From: Maribacter cobaltidurans
GTDB lineage: Bacteria; Bacteroidota; Bacteroidia; Flavobacteriales; Flavobacteriaceae
DNA length: 64,000 nucleotides
Reading direction: 5' to 3'
NCBI RefSeq assembly: GCF_002269385.1
Contig: NZ_CP022957.1
Span: 2,413,001-2,477,000, forward strand
The notes under the pieces were generated by a model, which saw only the letters and a list, made by a program, of their open reading frames with translations, did no database searches and was not told the origin of the DNA. Positions within the stretch are counted from its first letter, which is position 1; each line of letters starts with the position of its first letter. Shown here one piece after another: positions 1,038-18,729 of this stretch. A program made the position numbers and the translations under genes.

Positions 1038-1832
1038 TCATCTTTTTTTGAACTCTGTTATCTTATCATAGGAAGCTACAATACCTTGTATTAGTGATGA
1101 GCTTAGTCCCTGGTGTTCCATTTCGTTCAATCCTTGTATGGTACAACCCATAGGGGTAGTGACCCTGTCTATTTCCTCCTCTGGATGATTGCCGGATTCT
1201 ATCAATAATTTTGCTGCTCCGTTACAGGTATGCATGGCCAGTTCCTGGGCTTCTTTGGCATCGAACCCTAGCTGAATTGCTCCTTGTGTGGTAGCTCTGA
1301 TCAAACGCATCCAAAAGGCGATGCCACTGGCGCAGATAACCGTAGCCGCTTGCATTTGTGCTTCGGGTATTTGCATGGAGTGTCCCATTCTATTGAAAAT
1401 GGCCTTGGCCAGATCTATCCGTTTTTTACCTTTTTCATTGCTGCAGATACAGGTCATCGATTCCCCTACCGAGATAGCGGTGTTAGGCATACTTCTAATG
1501 ATATATTTATCGGCACCAATAACGGCTTCTATCTTATTGATTTCAAAACCGGTAATGGTGGAAATGATTACATGGTTGTCATTCAACAGGTCCTTGATAC
1601 TTTCTAGAATGTCCTTGAAATGACCTGGTTGAACCGCAAAAATCAAAATGTCAGACTTGGAAACGGCTTCCCTATTATCCGAGGTAACTGAGACATTTCC
1701 ATATTTTTCGTATTCGGAAATGGATTGGGTATTTCTCTTGGTGAGGTACATACTTGTTGCACCATTGCTATTAAGTATTCCTTTAGCTATGGAAAGTCCT
1801 AAATTACCGGTTCCTATGATGGCTATTTTCAT
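1038..1832 (-). CDS. proC: pyrroline-5-carboxylate reductase
   Basis: Reduces 1-pyrroline-5-carboxylate to proline with NAD(P)H. The 264-residue length is normal for ProC. The N-terminus is a Rossmann fold with IIGTGNLGLSIAKG at residues 4-17; the middle has the family segment RSMPNTAISVGESMTC, and the C-terminal dimerisation part has TTPMGCTIQGLNEME. The ATG is followed at once by the dinucleotide-binding strand, so the start is secure. It lies between argC (23 nt upstream) and argD (4 nt downstream), so proline and arginine synthesis are probably co-transcribed. Proline can be made from glutamate or ornithine semialdehyde, which may explain the linkage; that part is inference. Confidence 0.93.
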   Translation of the reverse strand: MKIAIIGTGNLGLSIAKGILNSNGATSMYLTKRNTQSISEYEKYGNVSVTSDNREAVSKSDILIFAVQPGHFKDILESIKDLLNDNHVIISTITGFEINKIEAVIGADKYIIRSMPNTAISVGESMTCICSNEKGKKRIDLAKAIFNRMGHSMQIPEAQMQAATVICASGIAFWMRLIRATTQGAIQLGFDAKEAQELAMHTCNGAAKLLIESGNHPEEEIDRVTTPMGCTIQGLNEMEHQGLSSSLIQGIVASYDKITEFKKR

Positions 1833-1855
1833 GTGGTTATTTTTTTTAATGACAT

Positions 1856-2830
1856 CTAAAAAACACTTGCCTTCAGATTCAATCCTAGATTTTCCTCCAG
1901 CCCAAGAATCAAGTTCATGTTCTGCACCGCTTGTCCTGATGCGCCTTTTAATAAATTATCGATTGCCGATGTAATCAACAAGGTATCCTTATGCTTATGC
2001 AGGTGAATGTGACAGTTGTTCGTATTCACCACTTGTTTTAAGTGAAGTGGTTCTTCCGAAACATGGGTAAAAGCCGCATCGGCATAGAAGTTTTTATAAA
2101 GTTCCTTGGCCTCTTCCAATGACCCTGAATAATCCGTGTAGGCGGTGGCCAAAATCCCTCTAGTAAAATTGCCCCTATTCGGTAGGAAAAATAGTTCTCC
2201 CGTATTTTCCTGAAGGGAATGCAAACTCTCATTAATTTCTCCCAAGTGTTGGTGGGTAAAGGGTTTATACCAACTAACATTATTGTTTCTCCAGCTGAAA
2301 TGTGAAGTATCCGACGGACTTACTCCTGCACCTGTGCTTCCGGTTACGGCATTTACATGAATGGTTCCGGATAATTGACCTGCCTTGGCAAGTGGCAACA
2401 ATGCCAGTTGAATGGCAGTTGCAAAACAACCTGGATTGGCAATATATTGAGCATACTCTATTTCGGAACCATTCAGTTCGGGTAGACCATAGACAAATTG
2501 CTTTCCATTGAAATTAGCATCCGCCTGTAGCCTAAAATCGTTGCTTAAATCAATGATAATGGTTTTATCGGAAAAGGCATGGTCCAATAAAAACTTGGAG
2601 GAATTTCCATGTCCCAAACAAAGGAATACAACATCAACCTCTACGTTTACCTCACCTGTAAATTGTAACTCCGTTAGTCCTAAAAGGTCGGGATGTGCGG
2701 TCGACAAACCTTTTCCAGCCCTGGTTGTGGAATAGACAAAATCGATTTCCACCGCGGGGTGGTTCAACAATATTCGTATCAGTTCCCCGCCAGTATACCC
2801 CGAGCCTCCAATAATACCCGCTTTAATCAT
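1856..2830 (-). CDS. argC: N-acetyl-gamma-glutamyl-phosphate reductase
   Basis: NADPH-dependent reductase forming N-acyl-glutamate semialdehyde in arginine synthesis. The 324-residue protein opens with the Rossmann motif AGIIGGSGYTGGELIRILL and carries the catalytic cysteine in YIANPGCFATAIQLALLPL (near residue 134), followed by VTGSTGAGVSPS, which is diagnostic of ArgC. The end of argG overlaps the start of this gene by 8 nt, implying translational coupling within one operon. Length is in the short ArgC class (about 320-345). Confidence 0.95.
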   Translation of the reverse strand: MIKAGIIGGSGYTGGELIRILLNHPAVEIDFVYSTTRAGKGLSTAHPDLLGLTELQFTGEVNVEVDVVFLCLGHGNSSKFLLDHAFSDKTIIIDLSNDFRLQADANFNGKQFVYGLPELNGSEIEYAQYIANPGCFATAIQLALLPLAKAGQLSGTIHVNAVTGSTGAGVSPSDTSHFSWRNNNVSWYKPFTHQHLGEINESLHSLQENTGELFFLPNRGNFTRGILATAYTDYSGSLEEAKELYKNFYADAAFTHVSEEPLHLKQVVNTNNCHIHLHKHKDTLLITSAIDNLLKGASGQAVQNMNLILGLEENLGLNLKASVF

Positions 2831-4010
2831 TGCCTTGATTTACGTGGTTGTATATTTTTCCTGCGTTGGACTGGATTTTGATAAAGCCCTTGGCTTCCTC
2901 TGCAGACCAACCTTTGTTCATTTCACCATAACTTCCAAATGAGGCATTCATTAGGTCATGTGGCGATGAGATGCCGTTCAATCTAAATTGAAAAGGGTAT
3001 AGGCTTACAAAGACATCACCAGAAACCGTTTTTTGTGTATCGGCAAGAAATGCTTCGATATTGCGCATTACCGCATCCAGATAGTGGCCTTCATGCAAGA
3101 GCATGCCATAGAAGTTACCCTGTTGTTCTTTTTGAAATTGTTGCCATTTGGTCAAGGTATGCTTTTCCAATAAGTGGTGTGCCTTAAGAATGATCAATGC
3201 AGCAGCGGCTTCAAAACCGACCCTTCCCTTAATGCCTATTATGGTATCGCCCACGTGGATATCCCTTCCAATGGCGTATTTGGAGGCCATGGCTTCCAAT
3301 TTTTCGATATTGTTTACGGGTTCGTCGGTAACACCGTCAATGGCAACGAGTTCCCCTTGTTTAAAGGTCAGTGTTACATCGGTTGGTGTTTTTTCTTCCA
3401 ATTGACTTGGAAAGGCACTATCCGGTAGGGCTTTTTCAGACGTCAAGGTTTCCTCGCCCCCTACGGATGTTCCCCAAAGACCTCTGTTGATGCTGTACTT
3501 TGCTTTTTCCCAAGGGTAATCCACCCCGTTTTCCTGTAAATATTTGATTTCTACCTCACGGGCTAATTTATTATCCCTTATTGGGGTAATGATTTCAATT
3601 TCAGGGGCTATGATTTGAAAAATCATATCGAAACGAACTTGGTCGTTTCCGGCACCTGTACTGCCATGGGCAATATATTTGGCCCCGATTTTCTTGGCAT
3701 GGTTAACGATTTCGATGGCCTGTACGATCCGCTCCGCACTTACGGAAAGCGGGTAGGTGTTGTTCTTGAGTACGTTCCCAAAAATGAGATACTTTACTAC
3801 CTTGTCGTAAAAGGTCTGTACGGCATCGATGGACGTATAGGAACTAGCTCCCAATTGCAACGCCTTTTCTTCTATGGTTTTAATCTCCTCAGGAGAAAAA
3901 CCACCGGTATTTACACTTACCGCATGTACTTCAAATCCTTTTTCCTTTGAAAGATATTTGGCGCAATAGGAGGTGTCCAAACCACCGCTGTATGCTAGTA
4001 CTAATTTCAT
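2823..4010 (-). CDS. argG: argininosuccinate synthase
   Basis: Condenses citrulline and aspartate with ATP to argininosuccinate in the cytoplasm. The 395-residue protein begins MKLVLAYSGGLDTSYCAKYL, containing the PP-loop SGGLDTS of N-type ATP pyrophosphatases. Further family segments are AHGSTGAGNDQVRF, in which the conserved family segment is GSTGKGNDQVRF, and YSINRGLWGTSVGGE. It is the second structural gene of the arginine operon, 42 nt after the GNAT gene, and its tail overlaps argC. Regulation is probably through the upstream Arg-rich leader peptide. Confidence 0.95.
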   Translation of the reverse strand: MKLVLAYSGGLDTSYCAKYLSKEKGFEVHAVSVNTGGFSPEEIKTIEEKALQLGASSYTSIDAVQTFYDKVVKYLIFGNVLKNNTYPLSVSAERIVQAIEIVNHAKKIGAKYIAHGSTGAGNDQVRFDMIFQIIAPEIEIITPIRDNKLAREVEIKYLQENGVDYPWEKAKYSINRGLWGTSVGGEETLTSEKALPDSAFPSQLEEKTPTDVTLTFKQGELVAIDGVTDEPVNNIEKLEAMASKYAIGRDIHVGDTIIGIKGRVGFEAAAALIILKAHHLLEKHTLTKWQQFQKEQQGNFYGMLLHEGHYLDAVMRNIEAFLADTQKTVSGDVFVSLYPFQFRLNGISSPHDLMNASFGSYGEMNKGWSAEEAKGFIKIQSNAGKIYNHVNQGND

Positions 4011-14109: not shown

Positions 14110-14475
14110 TTAATACTTCCACTTTGCATCATTTTCCTCAACGTCCTGCACTCTGTATTTGGCAATCTTACGTATGAGCTCTTTAGGTAATGGTTTGGCA
14201 TAGGTAAATTGAATAGAGTCTTTTTTTACGGTATAACCGGATAGTTCTTTTTCAAAGGGCTTTAACGCAGGTCCGGTGGGAATGAAACTTACATGGGATT
14301 TGTGTGCGGAATAGGCATAGAGTATCGTTTTAGATTCAAATACCGGTTTCCCCCATTTTAATGTTTCGGTTGCACTGGGGGAGACATCGCGTAAAAGAGA
14401 ACGCAGTTCCTTTAATTTTTCCTGTGCGGCTTCAGGTGCATCTTCAATATATTCCTCCACAGTTTTCGGTTTCAT
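14110..14475 (-). CDS. DUF1801 (YdhG/YjbR-like) protein
   Basis: A 121-residue cytoplasmic protein of the DUF1801 family. Diagnostic features are the N-terminal VEEYIEDAPEAAQEKLKELR, the segment ATETLKWGKPVFE near residue 36, and SFIPTGPALKPFEKELSGY. The length is that of a single complete domain. Biochemical function of the family is not established; some relatives are called iron chaperone-like or DNA-binding-fold proteins from structure. It is the last ordinary gene before the attC-like cassette array on its upstream side. Confidence 0.8.
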   Translation of the reverse strand: MKPKTVEEYIEDAPEAAQEKLKELRSLLRDVSPSATETLKWGKPVFESKTILYAYSAHKSHVSFIPTGPALKPFEKELSGYTVKKDSIQFTYAKPLPKELIRKIAKYRVQDVEENDAKWKY

Positions 14476-14604: not shown

Positions 14605-14656
14605 GATTCCATTTTGGGAATCGGACCGCAATTAATTATACAATTTGTTGTGCTTA
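14605..14656 (+). repeat. attC-like palindrome arm at the downstream end of cassette A
   Basis: On the plus strand a GATTCC/GGAATC hairpin is followed by CCGCAATTAATTATAC and TTGTTGTGCTTA (14645-14656). The last 12 bases are the inverse of TAAGCACAACGA (15162-15173, 11 of 12) at the other end of the same gene. The CCGCAATT..TTATAC..GTTGTGC layout echoes the arms of the palindrome at 16350-16481. The opposite arm of this copy is degenerate or lost. Confidence 0.45.
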
Positions 14657-14661
14657 GTGTT

Positions 14662-15180
14662 TTATTTTCCTGGGTTGTGATTTCGTCCAGTTTCAAATCC
14701 GCAATATGCCAACAAAATGAGAAGTGCGATTTGTAAACCAAGAAAAATTATTGAAAAAATGCGCATTACTTGTCCTACTGGATTCTTTTCCTGCACAAAT
14801 GTTTTATTATCAGACGGCACACTGAAAAAGTCCAATATTCCAATAGTTTTTCCAAGAACTAGAATGAAAGCTACAGTAACCATCATTAGAATTAGATTAG
14901 CCGTGATGTTTTTAAATTTCCGTCTAATTGTTCGCAATAGATAGACTACAAAGAATGTGAAAACAAAAATTAAAGCAACAAAATGAAAATTTGCAATTAT
15001 AAAATAAGTGTCGTGGATATTTATTTCCAGAGTAGAGTCCGTTTTAAATCCATCCAATCCAAGAATGGCGAATATTAGAAATATAAAAAGTCCTATGGTT
15101 CCAATTAACCAATATATTTCTTTTCTATTCAAATTTTGAATGTGATTTGATTCTTCAACGTTAAGCACAACGAACCGCAA
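14662..15180 (-). CDS. unknown four-helix membrane protein with a cytochrome-oxidase-like motif (cassette A)
   Basis: About 170 residues with four hydrophobic helices. Residues 55-67 read IHDTYFIIANFHF, closely matching the heme-copper oxidase subunit I helix-X segment HDTYYVVAHFHY; the second heme-ligand histidine (H66) and the HD pair (H56, D57) are kept, but the heme a3 ligand position is Asn (N64). No other oxidase motif is present and the length is a third of subunit I. There is no ATG near the start: the frame opens at TTG 15180, with GTG at 15168 or TTG at 15132 as alternatives. The gene is bracketed by a 12-bp inverted repeat, the first of three such units. Function unknown. Confidence 0.6.
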   Translation of the reverse strand: MRFVVLNVEESNHIQNLNRKEIYWLIGTIGLFIFLIFAILGLDGFKTDSTLEINIHDTYFIIANFHFVALIFVFTFFVVYLLRTIRRKFKNITANLILMMVTVAFILVLGKTIGILDFFSVPSDNKTFVQEKNPVGQVMRIFSIIFLGLQIALLILLAYCGFETGRNHNPGK

Positions 15181-15265
15181 CGAAATAAGGCCTTGTTAAT
15201 GCTTGTTAGTCTTAAATTTAAAGATTATGTAGCAATGAATTATAGCCGGTGTTGACAATAATTAA
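15162..15265 (+). repeat. attC-like junction between cassettes A and B
   Basis: Starts with TAAGCACAACGA (15162-15173), the inverse of the left end of cassette A, and ends with GTTGACAATAATTAA (15251-15265), the inverse of the right end of cassette B (16341-16355, 14 of 15). Inside, CAAC-GA-ACCG pairs with CGGTGTTG and GCAATGAATTATAG resembles the right arm of the better preserved 16350-16481 site. The left inner arm is degenerate. The stop codon of gene B lies inside the terminal repeat. Confidence 0.5.
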
Positions 15266-16332
15266 AATTCAACAAATTTTTTCATCATTTGATTTAAAGA
15301 CTCTGTTTCTCTTAGTAGGTCATATAGACAGAATTTGCATAGAACATAGTCATCGTTAACCAAATTGAACAAATCAGACTTATACAATTGATTTGTTTTA
15401 TTGCATTTTTTACATTTTACCTTAAGTTTTCTTGAGAGGCTTGTAAGACCCGTTTTTCCTTTCTCGGACCTTTCGTCATGTTGTTCGTGCAATAACATTT
15501 GGCCAATTATTCTAAGAAACTTTCTTTCAATGCCTTTCTTTTTCGTTATCATTTTATTTTTTAAAAGATAGGTGTCAACTACTTCGGTTGAATAGTATAG
15601 AATGAAGGGTAAAAAGTAGTAGAAATAATCCAGCTGAGAAAGCCATTCATGTTCTCCAGAAAAAATTAGATTGAGATTATTTTTTTCGGTTTTGTATGAT
15701 GGATTTCTAGTGGTTACTAAATGAGTGGCTATATTCGAATATGCATAAAGGCTATTTGGATTGTTCTTATCCCAGCGCAATTCATTAATAAAGTCGGATG
15801 ATAGAAAAGAATTTGGCCTAATTGAATCTATGCAGTTTTCAATTAGTTCTTTTTTCCTTTCGGTTTTAACTTTTCCAGGATCGAATTTATTTGCTTCTGA
15901 TTCAAATCTTCTTAAGAAATCACTTTCATCCACTAATAATTGCTCAATGATTAAAAGGTTCTCTAAAAATGGCTTTCTCAATAAACTTATTGCAACGGTG
16001 AGTTTAATTTTTTTTGCACTATTTAGAGCTTGATATATGAAATGACAACTGTCCGAAATAAGACCAGACATTAAATTTTTACTAATTATTTCGTCTACTT
16101 CTTTTTTATAACCCTTTTCAAGTAGCCATTCAATTATGTCTACATTTTCTGAATCAGGTCGTTCATTACTTAAGTCAAAATCTATTCTAACTTTAAATTT
16201 TCTCTGGATTGTAGCATCTTTTAATATCCAAACAAGGTCATCATATAATCTAGTACAGACGTTATGTGAAAAATGAAACCCCTCCGGGAGATAGACGTCA
16301 TCATTAGGGTAAATAAATAGTATGTCGTTCAA
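15262..16332 (-). CDS. hypothetical protein with C-terminal zinc-ribbon-like cysteines (cassette B)
   Basis: 356 residues, hydrophilic, AT-rich and lysine-rich, with no signal peptide or clear membrane helix. The C-terminus has two cysteine pairs, C307/C310 (KCKKCNKT) and C332/C335 (LCKFC), spaced like a treble-clef or zinc-ribbon finger. The N-terminal segment RIDFDLSNERPDSENVDI and the rest match no family I know. The start is TTG at 16332 because no ATG occurs upstream before a stop. It is the middle unit of the inverted-repeat-bounded array and is oriented like its neighbours. Function unknown; accessory gene cassettes commonly carry such orphan proteins. Confidence 0.6.
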   Translation of the reverse strand: MNDILFIYPNDDVYLPEGFHFSHNVCTRLYDDLVWILKDATIQRKFKVRIDFDLSNERPDSENVDIIEWLLEKGYKKEVDEIISKNLMSGLISDSCHFIYQALNSAKKIKLTVAISLLRKPFLENLLIIEQLLVDESDFLRRFESEANKFDPGKVKTERKKELIENCIDSIRPNSFLSSDFINELRWDKNNPNSLYAYSNIATHLVTTRNPSYKTEKNNLNLIFSGEHEWLSQLDYFYYFLPFILYYSTEVVDTYLLKNKMITKKKGIERKFLRIIGQMLLHEQHDERSEKGKTGLTSLSRKLKVKCKKCNKTNQLYKSDLFNLVNDDYVLCKFCLYDLLRETESLNQMMKKFVEF

Positions 16333-16340
16333 AGTTTCAA

Positions 16341-16481
16341 TTAATTATTGCCAACGGTCTGGCTATGCGCAGTGCGGAAATAGAAAGCTCTTCACTGTCA
16401 GCTTGCCGATATGTATGTTAATACTCTTTTACTTTCAATTTAGCACAAAACCCCGCATTGTGTATAGGTTTTGTTAGCTGC
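16341..16481 (+). repeat. attC-like imperfect palindrome between cassettes B and C
   Basis: Best preserved junction of the array. TATGCGCAGTGCGG (16364-16377) pairs along its full 14 bases with CCGCATTGTGTATA (16453-16466) when the plus strand folds, using three G-T wobbles; on the minus strand those three positions become A-C mismatches. Outer core GCCAAC (16350-16355) pairs with GTTAGC (16473-16478). The left end TTAATTATTGCCAAC belongs to cassette B and the right end TTGTTAGCTGC to cassette C. Size (about 130 nt), strand bias of folding and location downstream of an ORF match integron attC sites. Confidence 0.6.
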
Positions 16482-16487
16482 TGCCTT

Positions 16488-17099
16488 TTATTTTTTTCTT
16501 TCATATCCTGGAAAACATTGGGGTCCAATTGCACCACCACCATATTCTAAAACGACATTGTCCTTGTAATAAATGTAGGTGCAACCACCATTATATTGAC
16601 TTATTAAACTGTCATTCAAGTTCTGGTCAAAAATGTCGTAGAAGAACTTTCCCATACCACTTCTTTGCCACCCAATTCTTGTCGGATTACCACTTGCTAC
16701 TGAAATACAGTTTGCCTTGCCAAGTTTCGTTTCTAAAGTTATTAGGTCGTTTTTCGTCAAACCGATTACATTTAGAAGTGAATCAGTTTTCTTTGAGTCA
16801 ATATCTAAATCCCAATTGCTGTCATAAGTTCCATTTTTCTTTACATGAAATATTCCTAGGTCTCTATTATCAAACTCCACGTCAATATATGTGTCAGAAG
16901 AAATTTTTGAATCTAAAAAGGTTTTGACTTCAATGACTTCACTTTTTCTCTGTTCATAATTATCAATTAAGTCCTGTTTAGTGTAAGACGGTCCTGTAAA
17001 TATCCCGTCAAATGCAATATGTATGAAGAGATAAAATCCACCGAAAATCAAGACTAGAATTCCGAGTATTATCAGTAGAATTTTGACAGGTCTATTCAT
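16488..17099 (-). CDS. hypothetical membrane-anchored protein (cassette C)
   Basis: 203 residues. Residues 5-30 are one hydrophobic helix (ILLIILGILVLIFGGFYLFI), most simply a signal anchor that leaves a periplasmic domain of about 170 residues. The domain has strand-rich character (DTYIDVEFDNRDLGIFHVKK) and a cysteine near the end (GPQCFPGYERKK). ATG start at 17099 is clear. It is bounded by a perfect 11-bp inverted repeat, TTGTTAGCTGC at 16471-16481 and GCAGCTAACAA at 17117-17127, as the first gene of the array in reading direction. No family recognised. Confidence 0.6.
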   Translation of the reverse strand: MNRPVKILLIILGILVLIFGGFYLFIHIAFDGIFTGPSYTKQDLIDNYEQRKSEVIEVKTFLDSKISSDTYIDVEFDNRDLGIFHVKKNGTYDSNWDLDIDSKKTDSLLNVIGLTKNDLITLETKLGKANCISVASGNPTRIGWQRSGMGKFFYDIFDQNLNDSLISQYNGGCTYIYYKDNVVLEYGGGAIGPQCFPGYERKK

Positions 17100-17116
17100 G
17101 TTGTCTTTTTCAGGTT

Positions 17117-17153
17117 GCAGCTAACAATTGTATATGTGTACAATTACACATAT
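17117..17153 (+). repeat. cassette C end repeat with hairpin
   Basis: GCAGCTAACAA (17117-17127) is the exact inverse of TTGTTAGCTGC at the far end of cassette C. It is followed by a perfect 9-bp hairpin ATATGTGTA CAAT TACACATAT (17132-17153). This is the outer edge of the cassette array; GT2 genes with normal composition begin beyond the next terminator. Confidence 0.5.
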
Positions 17154-17196
17154 TTCTTTTATATACGGAATATAGCCAATAATAACATACGGGCAT

Positions 17197-17244: not shown

Positions 17245-18729
17245 TTATGCCCTGGCCGTTAAGCTTTTAAAGAATACAAAGCTAAAGCCTAGGAACAACA
17301 TAAAGTGGAACGGGAAGAGTCCAAAATCGTTTAAGGGAACCGCACTGTACATGCCAAAAAGGAAATACAACATTAAGGCGAATTCCAAAATCATATTAGG
17401 GGACAATTTCTTGGCCAAATATTTATTGCCCTTCCAACTCTCGGTCAAATTATTGATGTTGAATTTTGGCGTACGTACAAATTCACTGCGCTTGCCCATA
17501 TGGCCTTCCAATACAGCTAGTGAATTGTGCAGGGAAAAGCCCAAGGCCACCGAGAAAAAGGTAAAAAACAATTTGATATAGTCTATGAATCCATCAAAAC
17601 TACTTCCCTGTACGCTCTTATAGGTAAACCAATAACAGATAAAAAGAATAATGGTACTTACCACAAAGAGGTTCAACAATGAGAAAACCCAATCCAAGTG
17701 GCCAAAAGTGTTTTTGATATACAGCGCAGGTATGCTTAAAAGAGCTACCAAAAATACACAGAGGAACATACTACTGTTCAATAGGTGCATCACCCCATGG
17801 AACTTGGTCTTAAAAGGTATGTTCTTGGCAGTGATTACACTCCAAACGGTTTTTCTAAAGTTTTCGGCACCGCCCTTGTTCCAACGGAACTGTTGGGAAC
17901 GCGCTGCACTGATTACTACGGGAAGCTCGGCAGGAGTCTCCACATCCTCCAAATATTTAAATTTCCAGTTCTTTAATTGGGCACGGTAGCTAAGGTCCAA
18001 ATCCTCGGTCAAGGTGTCGCCCTCCCAGTTACCGGCATCCAAGATGGTCTCTTTTCTCCAAATACCTGCTGTACCGTTAAAATTGATAAAGTGTCCTTTG
18101 GCATTTCTACCTACTTGTTCCAAGGTAAAGTGGGCATCCAATGCAAAAGCCTGTATTTTGGTTAAGGTGGAATAGTCGCGGTTCAAGTGTCCCCAACGGG
18201 TCTGTACAACGCCAATTTCAGGGTCTTTAAAATAGATAACGGTTTTCTTTAACCAATCGGAGGATGGCATAAAGTCGGCATCAAAGATGGCAATGAACTC
18301 GCCCTTGGCAATCTTTAGTCCTTCCTTAAGGGCACCGGCCTTGAAGCCTGTTCTATCGGTCCTACGAATATGTTGTATGTCCAACCCGGTTTCCTGTAGT
18401 TCGGAAATTCGCTGTGCGGTAACGGCAACCGAGTCATCGGTAGAATCATCCAACACCTGGATTTCCAATTTGCTCTTTGGATATTCTATTTTGGCGATAT
18501 TCTCCAAAAGGCGTTCCATGACATATTCCTCGTTATACACTGGTAGCTGAATGGTCACAAATGGAATTTCCCTGGGATCCAATAAATTGAATTTTGGAGC
18601 GGTCTGGTTCTTTCTTTTTTGGGAAAGGTAATTGACCAAAAGATTCAATTGAGCCAAACTGTAAAAGAAGATCAACAGCAGTGCAATACTATAGATCGCG
18701 ATGATAATGTAAGAGATGGTAAGTGCCAT
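17245..18729 (-). CDS. membrane-bound GT2 processive-type glycosyltransferase (cellulose-synthase-like)
   Basis: 494 residues. An N-terminal helix (about 5-27) leads to a cytoplasmic GT2 domain with VTIQLPVYNEEYV, the metal-binding FDADFMP, the acceptor-site EDLDLSYR, and QQFRWNKGG, the Q-x-x-RW motif of processive beta-glycosyltransferases. Four further hydrophobic helices fill residues about 310-494. This places it with cellulose/poly-GlcNAc/glucomannan-synthase-like enzymes, but without a PilZ domain. It lies 1 nt after a DPM1-like glycosyltransferase, so both probably build one envelope glycan or glycolipid. Confidence 0.85.
   Translation of the reverse strand: MALTISYIIIAIYSIALLLIFFYSLAQLNLLVNYLSQKRKNQTAPKFNLLDPREIPFVTIQLPVYNEEYVMERLLENIAKIEYPKSKLEIQVLDDSTDDSVAVTAQRISELQETGLDIQHIRRTDRTGFKAGALKEGLKIAKGEFIAIFDADFMPSSDWLKKTVIYFKDPEIGVVQTRWGHLNRDYSTLTKIQAFALDAHFTLEQVGRNAKGHFINFNGTAGIWRKETILDAGNWEGDTLTEDLDLSYRAQLKNWKFKYLEDVETPAELPVVISAARSQQFRWNKGGAENFRKTVWSVITAKNIPFKTKFHGVMHLLNSSMFLCVFLVALLSIPALYIKNTFGHLDWVFSLLNLFVVSTIILFICYWFTYKSVQGSSFDGFIDYIKLFFTFFSVALGFSLHNSLAVLEGHMGKRSEFVRTPKFNINNLTESWKGNKYLAKKLSPNMILEFALMLYFLFGMYSAVPLNDFGLFPFHFMLFLGFSFVFFKSLTARA

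Follow-up and report, generated by a model that had tools for sequence, protein, structure and literature searches.

A small array of candidate gene cassettes from an integron-like system in Maribacter cobaltidurans

Results

Three adjoining units share one plan

In the window (the whole 64,000-nucleotide stretch of the Maribacter cobaltidurans genome that we analyzed), three unrelated small genes adjoin one another in an exchangeable slot, each with its own hairpin tag. The slot is marked by a GT2 glycosyltransferase gene (17245..18729, minus strand), matched in 33 of 36 genomes of the genus. Each unit begins with GTT and six nucleotides (n6), ends with the complementary n6' and AAC, and is followed by an attC-like hairpin; the ends differ from one unit to another. 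Unit C (16356..17125, minus strand), which extends from its opening GTT up to the last base ahead of the following GTT, contains ORF C (16488..17099, minus strand; 203 aa). Its attC-like site (16353..16475, plus strand) is complete and scores 50.5 bits (E = 4.6e-9) with R1, a covariance model of the hairpin, and the bottom strand of this unit is the plus strand of the window. Unit B (15172..16355, minus strand) carries ORF B (15262..16332, minus strand; 356 aa) and a degenerate site (15132..15253, plus strand) with a typical left arm and a rearranged right arm, which accounts for its score of only 18.7 bits (E = 0.04). Unit A (14650..15171, minus strand) carries ORF A (14662..15180, minus strand; 172 aa as listed, with an unsure start codon), and the last attC-like site is a remnant (14605..14649, minus strand) comprising AAC, the left arm and the loop hairpin, with no right arm; the R1 search of the window did not detect this hairpin. 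None of the three ORFs has a Pfam match above cut-off, and an Rfam search gave no match above thresholds, with three weak ones taken for chance.

An earlier note on this DNA had described three co-oriented ORFs, each with a palindrome downstream. The shared orientation holds, whereas the palindrome is complete only at C; B and A look frozen or eroded. The inverted ends that it reported were correct in position and in match count (11 of 12 for A, 14 of 15 for B, 11 of 11 for C). The ends of B and C exceed chance expectation, with the observed end score reached in 2 of 400 trials each with shuffled flanks. The ends of A alone are not above chance, since 36 of 400 shuffled flanks reach their score of 10. 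That score is also reached by one control gene out of eight and by a cross-pairing of the 3' flank of B with the 5' flank of A. The terminal-repeat test by itself is therefore modest, and the case for cassettes rests on the other evidence given below.

A fourth element, absent from that first account, is a palindrome directly before the first unit, upstream of C (17126..17154, minus strand), which reads AATATGTGTA-ATTG-TACACATATA-CAATT, followed by GTT. It resembles the attI-like sites found behind integrases.

The content of the slot differs among relatives

Comparison with the closest relative (G170) shows slot flanks that are 94–96% identical to those of the window, and the first gene past the array, a DUF1801 gene (14110..14475, minus strand), is 92% identical. 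Homology breaks off inside the attI-like palindrome, the content between the flanks differs, and DNA homology restarts exactly at 14649, the AAC of the last hairpin; this AAC box, and not a GTT, forms the end of the exchanged block. In other relatives, too, the first ORF of the slot differs. In 31 relatives, the same slot contains no match to ORF A, B or C; four of these relatives have an integrase gene there (one of the four partial). Our automatic picker of attI-like sites returned none in 14 of the 31 and a doubtful palindrome in L112, which was left out; in seven (L115, L125, L126, L134, L135, L136 and L138) it returned GT2 terminators, likewise left out of the count except in L138, where visual reading identified an attI-like site that was counted.

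Searches of 188 other genomes of the family found homologs of ORF C in 4, three of the four adjoining attC-like sites, and homologs of ORF B in 3, one of them adjoining such a site. The same genes kept together in relatives would have spoken against cassettes, as the earlier note recognized; what we found is sporadic occurrence, beside attC-like sites in four of seven cases.

Hairpin sites are widespread and lean to the bottom strand

R1 was built with rows from 16 of 22 integrase loci. Of 149 genomes from this family, 133 contain sites detected by the model. Within the stem, 94.3% of cells are paired and 13 of 17 pairs have changed on both sides, a result reached in 0 of 500 shuffles. Pairing of n6 is perfect in 84 of 125 site pairs (shuffles: mean 2.2, maximum 9); by inspection, the 41 pairs below 6/6 include some that span long gaps, probably with an undetected site between them, and some in L068 that are shifted in register.

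Several traits of attC are present: an imperfect stem, an unpaired spacer, a variable loop and a preferred bottom strand. A motif-free finder counted 256 G.T pairs on the bottom strand versus 18 on the other, stem mismatches lean to the bottom strand in 103 and to the top in none of 113 distinct sites, and 89 of 95 sites have fold energies in favor of the bottom strand. Other traits depart from attC. The core GTTRRRY / RYYYAAC occurs in 7 of 155 sites and the shorter GTTR in 149 of 155; an extra stem base is present in 19 of 56 sites and absent in 37, and G.U occupies two stem pairs in 45 and 53 of the 56.

Cassette boundaries coincide with GTT

Across the loci given, 158 cassettes have matched ends, distributed over 40 loci. 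Where identical cassettes lie in different surroundings, identity stops exactly at GTT (CGTT); among 26 homologous cassette pairs, several diverged ones lack a sharp edge there. As in integrons, differing cassettes in one orientation are exchangeable, as seen from the GTT boundaries and from slot replacement. By position and sequence, 28 of 30 loci have an attI-like site next to the integrase, with the start of the first cassette at that site; both misses are one locus present twice. The integrase stops of L163, L165 and L174 are rough guesses, and their distances were not used.

Sites accompany tyrosine integrases that lack the I2 region

The earlier note saw no integrase, which is correct for the window, where none of the listed own-genome integrase matches falls, and incorrect for the genome. 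Looking for a tyrosine integrase elsewhere, as it had proposed, yielded two full platforms with integrase, attI-like site and cassettes near 3.48 and 3.64 Mb (integrases at C1:3476350-3477447 and C1:3639193-3640305). At E ≤ 0.01 this genome has 51 sites; two stretches ending at these integrases account for 30 of them, all oriented as the integrases are.

The same linkage holds more widely. R1 found sites in all 22 integrase loci, 198 in total, and 196 of these sites have the expected orientation; six of the loci gave no rows to R1, yet contain sites. Held-out loci yielded 77 sites in 11 of 12, every one oriented with the integrase, and named genomes yielded 63 sites in 19 of 80 loci, 63 of 63 oriented and 61 downstream, a set in which L182 (10 sites) duplicates the training locus L059. 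No site occurs within the 21 kb of locus L181, which carries the closest named integrase (Muricauda sp. CAU 1633). On 20 canonical-IntI or Xer loci, 13 of them only about 3–4 kb long, R1 found 0 sites, a result that leaves room for attC of another type in canonical IntI loci; the sole Xer locus tested, L001, has no site within 3.5 kb. Sites are still found in 34 of 48 family genomes that lack a strong integrase match, so coupling of the two is not strict. When 17 such genomes with at least 10 sites were re-searched, one was matchless and most had only matches of about 300 aa, which we take for Xer; the site-rich genomes G041, G122, G130 and G143 hold fragments of family integrases.

The integrases are tyrosine recombinases (PF00589, E = 1.5e-39), with R, K, H, R, H and Y invariant in 10 of 10 aligned sequences. 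They lack the IntI-specific domain (the 42-residue I2 or patch III region): the catalytic Lys motif lies 66–69 residues from LRH (25 rows from 27 Bacteroidota loci) versus 108 in canonical IntI (16 rows from 19 loci), the motif search having missed L075, L159 and three canonical loci. TIGR02249 aligns only to either side of the I2 region and scores under its cut-off. In our tree, in which long branches were flagged and the branch of this group was not starred, the integrases do not group with IntI but form their own group (34 rows, 85/81) beside it (16 rows, 100/100), with Xer outside. The closest solved folds for the catalytic part are XerA and XerC-D, along with IntI4. The ten aligned integrases have an extra N-terminal domain with no consistent Pfam match and a best Foldseek E value of 0.054, which is not significant; weak likenesses of this domain to readers of damaged or mismatched DNA do not count as evidence. 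We also rejected eight identical 298-aa integrases as the cassette integrase, as the copy examined lies in an IS91-family element (Y2_Tnp, Zn_Tnp_IS91).

Discussion

Slot replacement in G170 and differing first ORFs elsewhere, identical cassettes with new neighbors and an edge at GTT, n6 pairing within cassettes and stem covariation all support the proposal of the earlier note that the units are cassettes with attC-like sites. We conclude, with high confidence, that the three units form a small array belonging to an integron-like system and are mobile gene cassettes. Points against this conclusion are the incomplete sites of B and A, the AAC edge of the exchanged block in G170, the loose coupling of sites and integrases, the siteless locus L181 and the diverged cassette pairs with no sharp edge at GTT. 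The same note took end pairing beyond 6–7 nt as a possible mark of a distinct family, a point that does not stand: pairing of 9–11 nt is normal in integrons, as a passage of PMC2727003 has it. What sets this family apart is instead its integrase, together with the traits of the core and stem of the sites.

Three other explanations fare less well. That ordinary CALIN cassettes were brought and moved by the canonical IntI of other bacteria, with the adjacent integrases as bystanders, is improbable. It would suit the genomes with sites and no strong match to the integrase family, and canonical IntI does occur in other classes of the GTDB phylum (84 of 296 genomes above the cut-off), with R1 sites also present in some of those genomes. 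Such an IntI was found, however, in no genome drawn from the same family or order and in one from the same class, and 19 canonical-IntI loci (18 genomes; twelve loci of about 4 kb) have 0 sites, in contrast to 22 of 22 of the other loci. Moreover, four of six other-class genomes with R1 sites (G218, G226, G352 and G207) carry a strong patchless integrase, in three of the four on the same contig as the sites, and GTTRRRY is confined to the 7 of 155 sites noted above.

Less probable still is that real cassette ends are moved by another recombinase, be it a Xer of the chromosome or the integrase that the IS91-like element carries. Linkage to and orientation with the 370-aa integrases argue against this idea, as does the fact that an IS accounts for its own insertion and not for the exchange of unrelated cassettes, even though all 7 copies of the element that were examined have GTT on one side and a cassette-end-like flank on the other, and several site-rich genomes have Xer-like matches only. 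We give almost no credence to terminators or repeat palindromes between unrelated genes with ends matched by chance: the hairpins are AT-rich and lie behind ORFs, and the ends of unit A alone are within chance (36/400), but n6 pairing, covariation, strand bias, the exact edges of identical units at GTT and the replaced content of the slot already contradict this reading.

In the cassette system that we favor, a cassette would consist of GTT-n6, one ORF, n6'-AAC and an attC-like hairpin. The bottom strand of the site would fold into a first stem of n6/n6' plus the GTT/AAC boxes and a second of 17 pairs with conserved G.T pairs, and a tyrosine integrase would cut at GTT, so that a circle could be released, or could enter at attI or a further attC. 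On this view, what follows the GT2 gene is an attI-like site native to the genus; its own integrase is missing here, and either of the two related integrases elsewhere in this genome could act in trans. Movement presumably proceeds by single-strand recombination, presumably to this day, and the mover of these cassettes is probably a patchless integrase, an enzyme without the helix thought essential for hairpin reading.

Xer recombinases act on dif. The integrases described here share with XerA and XerC-D the closest solved catalytic folds and the lack of the IntI insertion, but form a separate group in the tree, and the Xer locus L001 has no R1 site. They are an IntI-like/Xer-like clade without the I2 insertion. 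Like IntI integrons (class 1–3 and chromosomal), the system has an integrase gene, an attI-like site, mostly single-gene cassettes in one orientation, folded sites with paired outer boxes, an unpaired spacer and a variable loop, a bottom-strand preference and an exchange edge at GTT. Unlike them, its integrase lacks the insertion (66–69 versus 108 residues), carries an additional N-terminal domain, seen in all ten members aligned, and usually reads towards the cassettes; its core is GTTR rather than GTTRRRY, and 37 of 56 stems have conserved G.T pairs in place of an extrahelical base. In G218 and G226, of another class, the integrase diverges from the array, the canonical layout. The reverse-oriented integrons of Spirochaetota, in the account excerpted from PMC9668308, resemble the Flavobacteriaceae platforms in integrase orientation, but their enzymes are called IntI, and bacterial IntIs are said there to have the specific domain that is absent here. 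The array in the window resembles a CALIN, as a passage of PMC9024848 describes it, in lacking an adjoining integrase, but differs in that the genome has two family integrases with platforms of their own, and in that this very slot contains an integrase gene in four relatives. We file the system as an integron-like variant and not as an IntI integron.

Our literature search found no description of such a system. IntegronFinder defines IntI via the specific domain (passage of PMC9668308); its version 2 found one complete Bacteroidetes integron (Salinibacter), after In0 elements only, according to a passage of PMC9024848, and a Tenacibaculum genome paper whose authors used it reports no integrons (passages of PMC10013915). 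Reviews count Bacteroidota among integron carriers in a broad sense, in the sections concerned (PMC8618304, PMC2426708). Our findings suggest a blind spot in integron detection, and because hairpin sites occur in 133 of 149 family genomes, a major route of gene exchange may be uncounted.

In the published model, as outlined in a passage of PMC7790495, the acquisition of the I2 helix is what gave integron integrases their ability to recombine single strands; the helix is held necessary for cassette capture and is known from no other protein. Integrases without that insertion count against our interpretation. The many I2-less platforms with the other tested hallmarks of integrons make this model directly testable. 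We lean towards the view that a second type of integron is widespread in Bacteroidota: an I2-less integrase would act on folded single-stranded attC-like sites, and the strand would be chosen by conserved G.T pairs, perhaps with the N-terminal domain. If this is true, G.T pairs would replace the extrahelical bases docked by I2, and hairpin-based cassette capture would be older than I2 or would have arisen twice.

The window array and its slot in relatives

Reading along the minus strand, the GT2 glycosyltransferase gene (17245-18729) and its terminator come first, followed by an attI-like palindrome (17126-17154), cassettes C, B and A, and then genes for a DUF1801 protein and an esterase. All three units start with GTT and about seven variable bases and end with the complement of those bases and AAC. 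The earlier note had described such matched unit ends, and the same matches were recovered on recheck; by shuffling, those of B and C exceed chance, and that of unit A, taken alone, lies within chance. The AAC of each unit leads into an attC-like arm with the pattern AAC-n(3-6)-TATA..TTGC(GG). The site of cassette C forms a complete hairpin (50.5 bits, E 4.6e-9 with R1, our covariance model of the attC-like hairpin), that of B has a rearranged right arm (18.7 bits, E 0.04) and that of A lacks its right arm. None of the three cassette ORFs reached a Pfam cut-off. What remains of the last site includes a short hairpin at 14605-14625 that is shared with the closest relative, G170.

The GT2 gene has a match in 33 of 36 genus genomes, and we fetched 31 neighborhoods of the slot behind it. 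For the window and nine relatives, a script identified an attI-like palindrome and then GTT at a distance of 120-175 nt from GT2, on its downstream side, and one more palindrome (L138) was read by eye; none was counted in the remaining 21 neighborhoods. The first ORF differs behind every counted palindrome. R1 detects 41 sites at E<=0.1 across the 31 neighborhoods. The slot itself is occupied by an integrase of the family described below in four relatives (L120, L125, L135 and, partially, L134), and in L111 the esterase gene directly follows GT2. Proteins of G170 are close to those of the window (GT2 100%, DUF1801 92%, esterase 98% over the part covered). The interval between palindrome and last-site AAC, 2,500 bp in the window versus 1,815 bp in G170, has no DNA similarity and yields by translation a single weak match, which we read as the two hairpin sites. 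The right boundary of this replacement lies at AAC rather than GTT, and the right arm of the last site is missing from both genomes. Variation of the slot among relatives had been proposed as a check on the cassette reading; the G170 comparison, in which DNA identity is 96.3% as far as the palindrome and 94.0% onward from exactly the last site's AAC, favors cassettes.

Integrase platforms elsewhere in the genome

The window spans C1:2413001-2477000 of a 4.64-Mb, single-contig genome, in which the window-arm pattern has seven matches, all in one orientation and two of them the window's own (reversed-pattern control, one match). Two matches adjoin a tyrosine integrase at locus L024, where a 371-aa integrase, an attI-like palindrome and cassettes separated by hairpins lie in this order on one strand; an HNH/NUMOD4 gene occurs four times among these cassettes, which also include one further ORF. 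The four copies share one array (L024:6229-14062), and their cargo is homing-endonuclease-like. A second integrase at ~3.476 Mb (379 aa, 43% identical to the first) has the same layout. The nearest named integrase, 90% identical, is that of Muricauda sp. CAU 1633 (L181), a locus without R1 sites. With 150 of 3,339 candidates scored, the genome holds at least 51 sites at E<=0.01, of which at least 30 fall in two stretches ending at integrases. A further attI-like palindrome with a cassette start (L026:6770-6810), with no integrase in the stretch read, is possibly a second orphan slot.

An IS91-family element (L003 ~1055-3451, corresponding to ~C1:1486408-1488804, plus other copies) encodes a 298-aa tyrosine integrase, present in eight identical copies in the genome, together with Y2_Tnp and Zn_Tnp_IS91. 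All seven copies examined are placed between GTT and a cassette-end-like flank, so the core of these attC-like sites seems to be its target; the left flanks fit the arm pattern too in five of the seven. A site in a different genome (L158:5770) carries the same element end.

Structure and strand preference of the sites

Twenty training regions were picked solely by an integrase hit with downstream room, plus own-genome loci. Scanning 23 loci, the finder returned 155 sites, and R1 was built from the aligned bottom strands of 56 diverse sites from 17 loci. Covariation in this alignment supports a 17-pair stem: 94.3% of cells are paired, 13 of 17 pairs show changes on both sides, and its score was matched by none of 500 shuffles, with slid versions nowhere near. 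Two stem pairs are mostly G.U on the bottom strand (45/56 and 53/56), and an extra stem base is present in only 19 of 56 sites.

With a motif-free finder that scores both directions alike, stem transitions read as G.T numbered 256 on the bottom strand and 18 on the top; 103 of 113 distinct sites favor the bottom strand, and no site favors the top. The outer stem has an additional conserved A opposite a partner, mostly G.T on the bottom strand (65/76), and fold energies likewise favor that strand (89/95). In integrons, according to PMC2727003, the bottom strand recombines and the choice is set by a conserved extrahelical base. We infer from the sequences that the bottom strand would be the recombination substrate here too and that G.T pairs would carry strand polarity.

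Linkage of sites, integrases and cassette ends

R1 detected 198 sites in 22 integrase loci, every locus being hit, and 196 are oriented like the integrase; each of the two exceptions is a weak mirror image of a stronger site. Sixteen of these loci contributed rows to R1, and the six that did not (L062, L067, L072, L074, L075 and L076) have sites too. Eleven of 12 held-out integrase loci contain 77 sites, all oriented as expected, the twelfth being a 2-kb contig end. Among named genomes, 19 of 80 loci hold 63 sites (61 downstream and two upstream of the integrase), all 63 oriented, ten of them from L182, a repeat of training locus L059. Genomes with sites include Winogradskyella ursingii, Zunongwangia mangrovi, Algoriphagus ornithinivorans and Flavobacterium aciduliphilum; loci titled as other phyla had no R1 sites. 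Control loci for canonical IntI (19 loci from 18 genomes) and Xer (one locus) gave no R1 sites in 187.5 kb; thirteen are only ~3-4 kb, so the weight of this control rests on seven 20-kb loci.

Within cassettes, pairing between the six bases following GTT and the six preceding AAC is perfect for 84 of 125 consecutive site pairs (shuffled partners, mean 2.2, maximum 9). The 158 cassettes with matched ends include 26 homologous pairs, seven of which represent one organism twice; several diverged pairs lack a sharp edge. In five identical pairs with different neighbors, identity reaches one base past the unit on the left, and on the right it ends after the first 3-5 bases of GTT... Three of these are same-array copies (470 bp). 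Of the other two, a tandem copy measures 640 bp, and the pair that spans G101 and W. ursingii measures 904 bp and is 100% identical.

Sites at E<=1e-4 occur in 133 of 149 family genomes and 96 of 296 genomes drawn from the phylum. Where a family genome has an integrase match at E<1e-45, sites are present in 99 of 101 cases (median 18, with per-genome counts reaching at least 23) versus 34 of 48 without (median 4.5); the coupling is therefore strong, not strict (Fisher p 2e-6). We re-searched 27 site-bearing genomes with the integrase alignment: ten outside the family and 17 within it, the latter selected because their hits had been weak. Strong hits (E<1e-90) were present in seven of the ten, three of the same class (G289, G244 and G335) and four of other classes (G218, G226, G352 and G207), and the Lys motif-LRH spacing is 66-67 in the five of these seven that were read. 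Of the 17, one had no match, most had solely ~300-aa matches, taken for Xer, and a few had family-integrase fragments. In G218 and G226, the integrase shares the array's contig and is divergent from the array, as in canonical integrons. In G218 (L157:8359-18690), an inverted repeat, AACGTGGCTGGGCTAAGTAC.., recurs at cassette starts and is possibly a further element entering these sites.

An integron-like system with a distinct integrase

The family integrases contain PF00589 with invariant catalytic residues. The Lys motif-LRH stretch measures 66-69 residues in them (25 rows) versus 108 in canonical IntI (16 rows), and the TIGR02249 score of 205.6 lies below the cut-off of 265. A tree of 58 rows, with several long branches flagged, places them in a single group (85/81) separate from that of canonical IntI (100/100); Xer falls outside both. 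Among solved folds, XerA and IntI4 come closest. About 75 residues at the N-terminus are predicted, with moderate confidence, to form an additional domain, which had no significant match.

PMC8618304 and PMC2426708, and likewise our genome survey, show that the wider phylum does contain integrons, broadly defined, with canonical IntI; we also drew on PMC9024848, PMC7790495, PMC9668308 and PMC10013915. The open-licence full-text literature, which leaves out most subscription papers and all preprints, yielded no description of the present system. We do not class it as an IntI integron, because tests for the integrase domain, a GTTRRRY core and a conserved extrahelical base were negative. In the features that sequence can address, the system works like an integron. 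The array in the window represents a native, partly eroded slot of the integron-like system, and the enzymes acting on it are likely supplied in trans.
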